From an uncultured Oscillibacter sp. (lineage in GTDB: Bacteria > Bacillota > Clostridia > Oscillospirales > Oscillospiraceae): 64,000 nucleotides of DNA. Position 1 is the stretch's first letter. Each line of letters opens with the position of its first letter. The DNA lies in contig CATNDJ010000003.1 in NCBI GenBank assembly GCA_950097265.1, forward strand, positions 55,821 through 119,820, given 5' to 3'. A program made the position numbers and the translations under genes. Positions 2,619 through 31,379 of this stretch are shown here, piece by piece. The notes under the pieces were generated by a model. The model was not told where the DNA came from. It worked only from the letters and a program-made list of their open reading frames with translations, and ran no database searches.

Positions 2619-3056
2619 GTCTGGGTTCCTCCTAATTCGTACGGTTTTTTGTTCGCGTCGATTCCGTACGGCGAGAGAAATTTTTCTGTCCGCGCTGCCG
2701 TGCGTATCATTCCGGCTCATGAAAAAATCCGGCGCAAAGCAGGCCGGTTCCGTCATGGCGCGGCGATCTACGCGCGCGTACAGACCTTTCTCAGCCGCCC
2801 GATTATCGGACATACTCCCCAGAAGTTACCTCTTTCGAGCAATCTCCCGGTTCATCGCGGTCACAGGGCGCAGAGGATGTCCTCTCCGCCGCATGCCAAT
2901 ATATCATAATTGAAAATTCCTCCCGTGTCAAGAGAAATTTTACTGTATTTTCTCTTTTTTTCAGAGGCGGCATTGGACGGTTTTCCGCATGCGGAATTTC
3001 CGCGGAAACGCGGAAAAAGAACCCCGAAACCATAGCGGTTCCGGGGTTCTTGCTGG

Positions 3057-27238: not shown

Positions 27239-28141
27239 ATGCGCCGTGTACTGATTTTACTGCTGGCCCTGCTGCTGCTCTCCGCCTGCGCCGCCCCGGC
27301 GGAGACGGAGGAGGCCCCGCCGGTCCCGGAAGCCCCGGAGGCCGCCGCGCCGGAGGAGGAAGCCCTGGAGGACCCCGGGGAGGAGACGGAAGACCACGTC
27401 CTTTTGACCCTGGACGCGCCCCTGGCGGACGGGCGGACCTTGCGGCTGGAGGCCTTCGGCCGGCGGGCCGACGAATACAGCTATGGCGTCCGGGAGGTGC
27501 GGGTGTACGACGGGGACGCGCTTATCCAGACTGTCCAGGCCCGGGAGGGCATTGTAAGCGAAGGGGTTGAGGACAGCGACTACACCGACTGCTGGAGCAC
27601 GGAAGACTGCATGGACGAGCTGGACCTGAACTTTGACGGGGATACAGACTTCGGCCTCTTCGCCGGGCGGTGCAACAACATGATCCCCTATTACTATTGG
27701 ACCTGGGACCGGGAGGCGGGGCAGTATCAATTCGCCTGCATCCTCCAGGGGGCGGAGGCCCATCCGGAAAGCGGGGAAACCACCGCCGAATATAAATCCG
27801 GCTCCGCAGGGTCCCAGTGGGTTACGGAGTACTACTGGCCTGACGGGAACGGAAGCCTGTATTTGCACCGGGTGGAACGGCTGGTCCGGGACTTCCAGCC
27901 CGATTCCGGCTATCTGGACGTAGAGCGGGAGGGCGCACGGGAAGTCTGGCTCCCCAGGGAGGGAGATTTCCTCCGCCCCCGGCCCGCCGAGTGGAGCATT
28001 GAGGCAGACCTGGTCCTGGCCAGCCGGGAGGTCCCGGTCTATGAGGGCAATGGGGATGGCACCGTCTCCTATTTTACCGAGCTTTGGGAGTTCTGGGACG
28101 GCGAGCCCCAGCTGGTGGAGCGAAAGGAGTATATCCCATGA
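27239..28141 (+). CDS. Hypothetical lipoprotein
   Basis: MRRVLILLLALLLLSACAAPAETEE lipobox. Confidence 0.75.
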   Translation: MRRVLILLLALLLLSACAAPAETEEAPPVPEAPEAAAPEEEALEDPGEETEDHVLLTLDAPLADGRTLRLEAFGRRADEYSYGVREVRVYDGDALIQTVQAREGIVSEGVEDSDYTDCWSTEDCMDELDLNFDGDTDFGLFAGRCNNMIPYYYWTWDREAGQYQFACILQGAEAHPESGETTAEYKSGSAGSQWVTEYYWPDGNGSLYLHRVERLVRDFQPDSGYLDVEREGAREVWLPREGDFLRPRPAEWSIEADLVLASREVPVYEGNGDGTVSYFTELWEFWDGEPQLVERKEYIP

Positions 28142-28494
28142 ATCACAGTCCTGACCTGCGCCTGGCCGTCACCCTGCGCCTTTTGGACGGCGAGGGCCAG
28201 CGGCGCTTTGGGCCCGGCGTGGCCGCTCTTTTGGAGGAGGTCCGGGAAAAGCGCTCCCTCCGGGCGGCGGCGGGGTCCATGGGCATGGCCTACTCCAAGG
28301 CCTGGCGCATCGTCCGCACCGCCGAGGAGGCCCTGGAGTGCAAGCTGCTGGACAGCACCATCGGCGGCCGCCACGGCGGAGGCGCGGCATTGACGCCGGA
28401 GGCGGAGGCTTTGCTGGCCGCCTATCAGGCTCTTCGGGAAGAGGTAAACGCCTACGCCCAGCGGCGCTTTCAGGAGCGCTTCCGGGACCTCTGA
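28138..28494 (+). CDS. ModE/LysR-type N-terminal winged-helix regulator
   Basis: GPGVAALLEEVREKRSLRAAAGSMGMAYSKAWRIVRTAEEALECKLLDSTIGGRHGGGAALTPEAEALLAAYQAL. Confidence 0.85.
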   Translation: MNHSPDLRLAVTLRLLDGEGQRRFGPGVAALLEEVREKRSLRAAAGSMGMAYSKAWRIVRTAEEALECKLLDSTIGGRHGGGAALTPEAEALLAAYQALREEVNAYAQRRFQERFRDL

Positions 28495-28546: not shown

Positions 28547-28813
28547 ATGGAACCTGTCTGCAATGAGTGCGCCCAGGAGCGCCTGGAACCCGTCACCATG
28601 AACGCCCGGGTACTGCGGGTGAACTGCTGCGACCTGCTGGTCTGCGACCTGTGCGGCTGTCAGGAAGTCCTGGTCCATACCAACGACGCCTGCTGCTTCC
28701 GCCCGGGCGAGTGCGTCTGCATCGAGTACGACGGCGCGATGACCATGAGCATCCCGCCCCAGATCAGCGCGGGCTGCGTGAAGCGCGTCCCCTGCGGAGG
28801 GTGCTGCTGCTGA
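28547..28813 (+). CDS. Small cysteine-rich protein (16 Cys in 88 aa)
   Basis: SD AAGGAGGTCCTCTTATG; MEPVCNECAQ...NCCDLLVCDLCGCQEVL...PCGGCCC; followed by terminator. Confidence 0.75.
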   Translation: MEPVCNECAQERLEPVTMNARVLRVNCCDLLVCDLCGCQEVLVHTNDACCFRPGECVCIEYDGAMTMSIPPQISAGCVKRVPCGGCCC

Positions 28814-28858
28814 GAAACCCCCGGCCCTTCCTCAAGGAGGGCCGGGCCCTTTTTCCCC

Positions 28859-28887
28859 TTGACAGGCCGCCCCGGACGGCCTATAAT
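28859..28887 (+). promoter_or_regulatory. Sigma-A promoter of riboswitch-deaminase unit
   Basis: TTGACA-17 nt-TATAAT. Confidence 0.85.
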
Positions 28888-28903
28888 CATACTCACATAC
28901 CGG

Positions 28904-28998
28904 CTTGTATAAGCTCATGATTGGATGGGCGTCTCTACCAACTGCCGCAACAGTTGACTACAAGCTTTGGGGCCCGCCCCAAAGCCTGTGGTCTTTTT
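28904..28998 (+). promoter_or_regulatory. Purine riboswitch (guanine-type pocket, C74) with overlapping terminator
   Basis: P1 CTTGTA/TACAAG, J1/2 TAA, P2 GCTCAT/ATGGGC, J2/3 GTCTCTACC, P3 AACTG/CAGTT with loop CCGCAA, J3/1 GAC; terminator GACTACAAGCTTTGGGG...CCCCAAAGCCTGTGGTC-TTTTT. Confidence 0.92.
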
Positions 28999-29049
28999 CT
29001 TTGCCGGTATTCATTCCGCGGGACTTCCGCGCACTTGGGAGGATGCCAC

Positions 29050-30405
29050 ATGCGCAGTCTTTTGATCAAAAACGCCTCCGCCGCCGTCACCTGCGACAGC
29101 CGGGACACGGTGCTGGAAAACGCCAATCTCCTGATTCAGGACGGCGTCATCGCCTACATAGGGCCCGAGCCCCGGGAAGCGGAGGAAACCCTGGACGCCT
29201 CGGGCTGCATCGCCTACCCCGGCCTCGTCAACACCCACCACCACCTTTACCAGACCTTCAGCCGGAACCTGCCCCAGGTGCAGAATCTGGAGCTCTTCGA
29301 CTGGCTGACCGCCCTTTACGAGATCTGGAAGAACCTGGACGGCGAGGCCGTCTATTACAGCTCCCTCGTGGGCATGGGGGAACTGCTGAAGACCGGATGC
29401 ACCACCGTCTTTGACCACCACTACGTCTTCCCCGGCGGGGCCTCCCTGGCATTGCTGGACGCCCAATTCGCCGCGGCGGAGGCCCTGGGCGCGCGCATGT
29501 ACGCCTCCCGGGGAAGCATGGACTTAAGCCGGAAGGACGGCGGACTGCCTCCGGACAGCGTGGTCCAGACGGTGGACGAAATTCTGGCGGACTGCCAAAG
29601 AGCGGTGGAGAAGTACCACGACCCCTCCTTTAACTCCATGCGCATGGTGGCCCTGGCCCCCTGTTCCCCCTTCAGCGTGTCGGCGGAGCTGCTGCGCCAG
29701 TCCGCCGTCCTGGCACGAAGCTTGGGCGTCCGGCTCCACACCCACCTGTGCGAGACCAAGGACGAGGAACGCTACGTCCTGGAGAAGCACGGCAAGCGTC
29801 CCCTGGCCTATATGGAGGACCTGGGCTGGGTGGGCCCGGACGTGTGGTACGCCCACGGCATCCACTTCAACGACGCAGAATTGAAGCTGCTGGCGGACAC
29901 GGGCACCGGCATCGCCCACTGCCCCATCTCCAACATGAAGCTCTCCTCCGGCGTGTGCCGCATTCCCGACATGCTGGCCCTGGGGGTCCCCGTGGGCCTG
30001 GCGGTGGACGGCAGCGCCAGCAACGACGGGTCCAATCTTCTGGAGGAACTTCGAGTGGCCTATCTGCTCCACCGCCTGTGCTCCAGTGAGAAAGCTCCCA
30101 GCGGCTACGACCTGCTGAAAATCGCCACCCGGGGCGGCGCCCGGGTCCTGGGCCGGGAGGATATCGGCTCCCTGGAGGCGGGCAAGGCCGGGGACCTGTT
30201 CCTGATCCGCCGGGACCGGCTGGAGCTGGTGGGAGCGGACCTGGACGTTTCCTCCCTGCTGGGCACGGTGGGCTTCAAGGGCCCCGTGGATTACACGGTG
30301 GTCAACGGCCGGATCGTCGTGCGGGAGGGCCGCCTTACCGGCGTGGACGAGGAAAAAGCGGTCCGGGAGGCCCGGGCCGCGGTGAGAAAATACCTGGAGC
30401 GCTGA
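29050..30405 (+). CDS. 8-oxoguanine/guanine deaminase-like amidohydrolase (TRZ/ATZ family)
   Basis: GLVNTHHHLYQTFSRNLPQVQNLELFDWLTALYEIWKNL...GCTTVFDHHYVFP...GSMDLSRKDGGLPPDSVVQ...VDGSASNDGSN. Confidence 0.85.
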   Translation: MRSLLIKNASAAVTCDSRDTVLENANLLIQDGVIAYIGPEPREAEETLDASGCIAYPGLVNTHHHLYQTFSRNLPQVQNLELFDWLTALYEIWKNLDGEAVYYSSLVGMGELLKTGCTTVFDHHYVFPGGASLALLDAQFAAAEALGARMYASRGSMDLSRKDGGLPPDSVVQTVDEILADCQRAVEKYHDPSFNSMRMVALAPCSPFSVSAELLRQSAVLARSLGVRLHTHLCETKDEERYVLEKHGKRPLAYMEDLGWVGPDVWYAHGIHFNDAELKLLADTGTGIAHCPISNMKLSSGVCRIPDMLALGVPVGLAVDGSASNDGSNLLEELRVAYLLHRLCSSEKAPSGYDLLKIATRGGARVLGREDIGSLEAGKAGDLFLIRRDRLELVGADLDVSSLLGTVGFKGPVDYTVVNGRIVVREGRLTGVDEEKAVREARAAVRKYLER

Positions 30406-30549
30406 TGGTAGGGGGGCGGGCGCTGCGCAGCCCTTGGCGGCTTTGCCGCTTAGGGATGCGGCGTGCCCCTTGCGGGTGCTGTCCCGCCCCGTTTCTCCGA
30501 AAACAGGACGGTTCCGAAAGAGCAGGAGGGGACAGAGCCCCTCCCCTAC
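30404..30549. repeat. Copy of dispersed intergenic repeat (TAGGGG...CCCCTA ends)
   Basis: Reverse complement begins AGTAGGGGAGGGGCTCTGTCCCCTCC, shared with 47546-47628. Confidence 0.6.
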
Positions 30550-31379
30550 TGCTGCAATTGCTTGTCCATCCGCGCCAGGAAGAAGGCCAGGCCGAACCCG
30601 GCGGCGGCGCAGAAGGCGGAAAGGGCGATTTCTCCCGCCCCGGTGTACTCCGTGGGGACGATGACCAGGGTGGAGGCGGCCACAAAGCCCAAAATGCCGT
30701 GGAAGGCCACGGCGTAATGCCGCTGGAAAAACCAGGTCACCAGGCGGGCCAGCAGCGCGATGGTCAGAAACATCCCCGGCAGGGCGGCGGAGAGGACCAG
30801 CAGGTCCAGCCGCGCCAGCCCCTCCAGCATGGGCCGGTAGAGCCCCAGGGCCATCATCACCGAGGAGGAGGTCATGCCGGGGATCACCACCCCCATGCCC
30901 CACAGGGCCCCGCAGAAGTTGTACCACCAGAAATTCGGTTCCACCTGGACGTGGGCCACCCGGCTGACGTAGAACAGCCCCGCGAACACCGCCCCGGCGC
31001 AGAGGAGGAAGCTCCCCCAGGCGGAGGCGGACCGGCCCTCCTTCCCCGCCTCCCGGAAGAGGGAGGGGGCCGTGCCCGCGATGAGGCCGATGAAGAGCCA
31101 GTAGGTCACCGCGTCGGAGAGGGTCATGGCCGCGGCGATGCCCTTGGCCACGCCCAGGAAGCCCGCGGCCCAGCCCAGGCCCAGGGGAATCAGCATCCGC
31201 CAGTACTTGGGGACCGCGCGCCTGGGCCGGGTCAGCACCTCCATGAAGGGCCGGTAGATGCCGAACACCACCGCCAGCACGCCGCCGGAGACCCCCGGCA
31301 GGATGGCCCCCGCGCCGATGAAAGCGCCGCAGAGGAAGTCCCGGAGCCAGTGGGCCCGCCGCCGCTGCCGCTCGTCCAT
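30546..31379 (-). CDS. DUF368 family membrane protein
   Basis: FLCGAFIGAGAILPGVSGGVLAVVFGIYRPFMEVL...GVVIPGMTSSSVMMALGLYRPML. Confidence 0.92.
   Translation of the reverse strand: MDERQRRRAHWLRDFLCGAFIGAGAILPGVSGGVLAVVFGIYRPFMEVLTRPRRAVPKYWRMLIPLGLGWAAGFLGVAKGIAAAMTLSDAVTYWLFIGLIAGTAPSLFREAGKEGRSASAWGSFLLCAGAVFAGLFYVSRVAHVQVEPNFWWYNFCGALWGMGVVIPGMTSSSVMMALGLYRPMLEGLARLDLLVLSAALPGMFLTIALLARLVTWFFQRHYAVAFHGILGFVAASTLVIVPTEYTGAGEIALSAFCAAAGFGLAFFLARMDKQLQQ

Follow-up and report, generated by a model that had tools for sequence, protein, structure and literature searches.

A predicted guanine-type ON riboswitch upstream of an 8-oxoguanine deaminase-family gene in an uncultured Oscillibacter

The window, i.e. 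the whole stretch of 64,000 nucleotides that was analysed (G000:C3:55821-119820), belongs to a 2.5 Mb draft genome of an uncultured Oscillibacter sp. On its forward strand a sigma-70 promoter (28859-28887, TTGACA-17 nt-TATAAT) matched the consensus at 12 of 12 positions, with 0.1 such matches expected in shuffled sequence. It is followed by a purine riboswitch aptamer, an intrinsic terminator, a ribosome-binding site GGGAGG (29037-29042, identified by sequence and conserved at the loci L069 and L113 of two other species) and a gene for an 8-oxoguanine deaminase-family amidohydrolase that starts with the ATG at 29050. The fold of the leader was 3.6 sd below that of dinucleotide shuffles, none of the 200 shuffles being equally stable. 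The preceding gene has its own terminator (28820-28846), hence the switch should govern a separate transcript, and since the next downstream gene (30546-31379) lies on the opposite strand, it seems to serve one gene. Upstream of the switch a small Cys-rich protein of 88 aa with the C-terminus CGGCCC is encoded at 28548-28814, preceded by the gene of a ModE-like DNA-binding protein (28138-28494). Elsewhere in the window (2795-2863, minus strand) an S10-Clostridia ribosomal protein leader was barely over its gathering score (36.8 vs 35.1). An inverted repeat in the riboswitch region, ATACCGGC at 28897-28904 and GCCGGTAT at 29003-29010, is absent in L069 and was assigned no role.

The aptamer (28885-28980, plus strand) was identified with the covariance model RF00167 at 49.6 bits, above the gathering score of 37, with an E-value of 2.3e-5 for a search of the whole window against all families. 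P1 is formed by 28903-28908 and 28960-28965, P2 by 28913-28918 and 28925-28930 with the loop L2 GAUUGG (28919-28924), and P3 by 28939-28944 and 28951-28956 with the loop L3 CCGCAA (28945-28950). Both loops have 6 nt and P2 and P3 have 6 bp each, compared to 7 bp in the Rfam consensus; the GG/CC of the loops, a kissing pair in known structures, is retained. The consensus was matched at U20-U22, A23-A24, G46-U47, U49-A52, C53, A73, C74 (28958), U75 and A76, and the pair C54-G72 is that of the consensus and of guanine aptamers. The pocket of guanine-I aptamers, i.e. U22, U47, U51 and C74 together with J2/3 and J3/1 of full length, is present, and the ligand contacts are all as in guanine aptamers. 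Adenine riboswitches have a U at position 74, where the window aptamer has a C, and the insertions in the joining regions that distinguish guanine-II from guanine-I are absent from it. In the joining regions, position 48 alone differs from the consensus (U48C, 28933). Among 27 purine aptamers of the bacterial family to which the window belongs, C48 was about as frequent as U48 and occurred upstream of transporters as well as deaminases. Therefore, U48C was rejected as a mark of specificity and says little on the ligand.

The intrinsic terminator (28956-28998, plus strand) consists of a 5' arm at 28956-28972, a loop at 28973-28976, a 3' arm at 28977-28993 and the run TTTTT at 28994-28998; the hairpin comprises 17 positions and has a folding energy of -25.6 kcal/mol. 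Its 5' arm starts at G72, 4 nt ahead of A76, and includes J3/1 and the complete 3' strand of P1 with its six bases. P1 and the terminator thus share one strand and exclude each other, so that the ligand should turn the gene on. The pbuE adenine ON riboswitch has the same layout, its P1 3' strand forming the terminator 5' arm, but base 74 is a U in the pbuE type and a C in the window. When folding of the growing transcript was calculated, the aptamer was the best structure up to 28987 and the terminator from 28990 onward. For the full-length leader the terminator fold (-39.9 kcal/mol) was about 7 kcal/mol more stable than the aptamer fold (-32.8 kcal/mol), a gap that could be offset by tight ligand binding. 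Similar gaps of about 9 kcal/mol were calculated for L069 (-41.2 vs -31.8) and L113 (-36.5 vs -27.2). With P1 held, only a remnant hairpin of 6 bp would be possible, located about 10 nt from the U run, which should not terminate. A match of 9 in 10 positions between GACTACAAGC and the downstream 38 nt occurred in 88 of 5000 shuffles and for 10 of 1729 other segments of the window. By this test chance is unlikely, although the test alone leaves some room for it; the conservation in L069 and L113 settles the matter.

L069 and L113 represent two species with enzymes 84-88 % identical to that of the window, and both keep the design of the switch. Aptamer and terminator are almost unchanged, while the surroundings of the promoter and the remaining leader are divergent. 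Compensatory changes were observed in the upper stem: L069 has C-G in place of a U-A pair of the UUUGGGG segment, and in L113 the C-G pair at 28965 is replaced by U-A. In a control set of Bacillaceae purine aptamers the terminator started at least 32 nt after A76 in eight of ten cases, as expected for OFF switches; a simple terminator caller was used and a few controls were ambiguous, e.g., L019, L036, L164 and L174. All seven distinct aptamers located directly upstream of an 8-oxoguanine deaminase gene had a terminator overlapping P1. The transcriptional ON layout, predicted from anatomy, folding and conservation, is well supported. The original prediction had described a complete purine aptamer with a C at the specificity position, two kissing loops one nucleotide short of the usual length and a terminator 5' arm built from the P1 3' strand and J3/1; these features were recovered here, the element is real, and the predicted ON logic agrees with the three lines of evidence.

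The enzyme (29050-30405, plus strand, 451 aa) scored 579.7 bits with the NCBIfam equivalog NF006055 for 8-oxoguanine deaminase (cut-off 532), while the second-best family reached 403 bits against a cut-off of 543. The guanine deaminase model TIGR02967 yielded 139.3 bits and missed its cut-off of 375.4. The top relatives in the PDB were 3hpa and 7ww2, of which 7ww2 bears the name 8-oxoguanine deaminase; the window enzyme, over the NF006055 cut-off, is of the same equivalog family and has the segment APCSPFSVS in common with both. Judged by its sequence, the protein is a member of the 8-oxoguanine deaminase family and clearly apart from guanine deaminase, so that from the initial description as an 8-oxoguanine/guanine deaminase-like gene only the first part was kept. 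Relatives of 8-oxoguanine deaminase take isocytosine, guanine or N2,N2-dimethylguanine (PMC6186785, PMC13054789). Two soil enzymes of the group converted guanine to xanthine in addition to 8-oxoguanine to urate, as stated with data not shown (PMC6186785), and related enzymes prefer N2,N2-dimethylguanine (PMC13054789). Because the relatives were reported to act on several bases, the substrate range of the window enzyme, a predicted member of the family, may be broad.

For a survey of orthologous loci, relatives were used to build a covariance model. Among about 125 distinct loci of the 8-oxoguanine deaminase gene, some with little upstream sequence, seven had a purine aptamer directly upstream: the window, L069, L113, L087 of Agrilactobacillus and the Paenibacillaceae loci L116 (identical to L195), L192 and L199. 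Most of the orthologues surveyed lacked a purine switch, therefore purine control is not essential to the role of the enzyme. The window, L069, L113 and L087 have the canonical guanine pocket. In the three Paenibacillaceae aptamers J2/3 is short by one base beside position 47/48 and reads G-CUCUAC instead of GUUUCUAC, a deletion that the window does not have. When linkage to a purine aptamer, with the Evansella locus L134 counted in, was mapped as a label on a tree comprising 119 enzymes, four changes were required, each imposed by branches with good support, compared to 7.8 in shuffles. The closest named relatives of the window enzyme were from Oscillospiraceae, in Oscillibacter-like genomes. 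With L134 left out, there are at least three separate direct linkages of a purine aptamer to this gene, in the Oscillospiraceae trio, in Agrilactobacillus and in the Paenibacillaceae trio. L134 was rejected as a direct linkage: its aptamer (1478-1557), with a J3/1 off consensus near position 73, lies upstream at a distance of about 1.4 kb and immediately precedes a 5'-deoxyadenosine deaminase-family gene, which the 8-oxoguanine deaminase gene follows. Likewise, an adenine-type aptamer with U74 and a very long P1-overlapping terminator (L056:3032-3109) was rejected as a control of 8-oxoguanine deaminase; it is divergent from this gene, pointing away from it, and its target is an adenine deaminase relative. 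G082, a genome from the genus of the window, has an orthologue without a purine aptamer, and that enzyme was placed elsewhere in the tree. A pattern search in 295 genomes of the order yielded only chance-like matches besides the window.

8-Oxoguanine riboswitches of Paenibacillaceae were reportedly described by Hamal Dhakal and colleagues in 2023 (as cited in PMC11625349). The class was announced in PMC9295807 and carries mutations at key recognition bases (PMC11625349). The aptamers of L116, L192 and L199 presumably belong to it, an assumption made from host group, gene and ON layout. The window shares the context of this class, i.e. a purine-type three-way junction with an ON architecture that immediately precedes an 8-oxoguanine deaminase gene, but not the one-base deletion in J2/3 that we derived here as its pocket change; its J2/3 is of the full guanine type. 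Judged against this deletion, the window aptamer is by its sequence a guanine aptamer and not an 8-oxoguanine variant. Since the deletion is absent and the pocket matches guanine aptamers of the same family, 8-oxoguanine as ligand, which had been raised at the outset, is weakened. The window has U22, U47, U51, C74 and the kissing-loop GG/CC in common with guanine-I switches of the xpt type, and differs in the 6-nt loops and the 6-bp helices P2 and P3. These switches are usually OFF and precede genes of synthesis, salvage or uptake, whereas the window switch is predicted to be ON and precedes a catabolic deaminase. With guanine-II it would share the sensing of guanine and the predicted ON direction, but guanine-II has insertions in the joining regions (PMC9295807). 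The window switch seems to combine known components in a new way rather than to be a device of a novel type.

The same genome contains a second purine aptamer (G000:C13:58052-58149, 43.4 bits). It precedes a guanine deaminase relative (TIGR02967, 302 bits, below the cut-off of 375) and is of the ON type, its terminator using the 3' strand of P1. Also present are a Se-dependent xanthine dehydrogenase (1315 bits) and two enzymes of the reductive breakdown of urate (PMC12507026), YgfK (1297 bits) and SsnA (619 bits). As xanthine derived from guanine and urate derived from 8-oxoguanine would both enter this route, ON control by guanine of the two deaminases would form a coherent catabolic programme. 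Aptamers paired with a guanine deaminase relative were found in at least eight further Oscillospiraceae genomes. Nine such aptamers before Oscillospiraceae guanine deaminase relatives (L002, L016, L022, L025, L029, L031, L032, L034 and L168, each at about position 1500) are mostly of the ON type by terminator overlap, often have U, G or C in place of A73 and may represent a subclass; L025 and L034 have an apparent extra base in J3/1. In a 4.3 Mb single-contig genome, tandem purine aptamers (L154:579-656 and 735-813), each with its own overlapping hairpin, precede a guanine deaminase relative. ON-type purine aptamers were also observed upstream of FAD-dependent proteins (PF21688) and a MATE transporter (L026, L037 and L030).

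The best explanation, to which we assign a probability of about two in three, is a transcriptional ON switch with a guanine-type (guanine-I) aptamer and guanine as ligand before the 8-oxoguanine deaminase-family gene; guanine as ligand, the direction of control in the cell and the substrate of the enzyme are what we infer. Without ligand, the RNA 3' of P3 would refold into the 17-position hairpin followed by the U run, and transcription would stop before the gene. Bound guanine would lock P1 and sequester the 5' arm of the terminator, and the gene would be transcribed. An excess of guanine would then induce both deaminases, and xanthine and urate would feed the anaerobic breakdown of xanthine and urate. 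Substrate induction in its simplest form would not place a guanine aptamer before an enzyme that owes its name to 8-oxoguanine, unless the enzyme also takes guanine. The canonical-looking pocket might instead sense 8-oxoguanine and represent a second, independently evolved 8-oxoguanine ON switch outside the Paenibacillaceae. That the 8-oxoguanine deaminase gene is the only one controlled, that the guanine deaminase relative has a separate switch in the same genome and that purine ON aptamers were linked to the gene repeatedly, suggesting the base itself as signal, would fit such a sensor. In known guanine complexes such as that of xpt, however, N7 is the acceptor of a hydrogen bond and the pocket closes around C8, contacts that 8-oxoguanine would disturb. 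In view of these contacts, of the J2/3 deletion that all three Paenibacillaceae aptamers before the same gene have and the window lacks, and of the mutated recognition bases of the published class, 8-oxoguanine appears an unlikely ligand.

Guanine-I aptamers disfavour hypoxanthine and xanthine by only about tenfold (PMC9295807), and with the several bases used by relatives of the enzyme this leaves a slim chance that another 6-oxopurine (hypoxanthine or xanthine) or an RNA-derived modified guanine is both the ligand and the substrate. C74 and U51 are kept, though, the ligand contacts are those of guanine aptamers, and the enzyme is over the 8-oxoguanine deaminase cut-off and has APCSPFSVS in common with 3hpa and 7ww2. 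An ordinary OFF switch, in which guanine promotes termination, is highly improbable. Guanine-I switches commonly lower expression when guanine is abundant (PMC9295807), but here the 5' arm of the terminator is the 3' strand of P1, so the ligand would stabilise the fold that excludes the terminator, and a separate antiterminator was neither needed nor seen in the folds.

The chief interest of the locus is that the same enzyme is preceded by a canonical pocket in some bacteria and by an altered one in others. If the guanine-sensing ON switch is right, there were at least three separate events in which a purine ON switch became directly attached to this 8-oxoguanine deaminase, the pocket being altered in one of them and unaltered in two. 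A comparison of the aptamers before this one gene may then tell whether guanine or its oxidised form is the signal, and what a pocket needs for discrimination. Should the window aptamer sense 8-oxoguanine after all, the sensing of oxidative damage by RNA would have arisen independently outside the Paenibacillaceae. With guanine as ligand, the locus would show that gut Oscillospiraceae use guanine-type aptamers to switch on purine breakdown.
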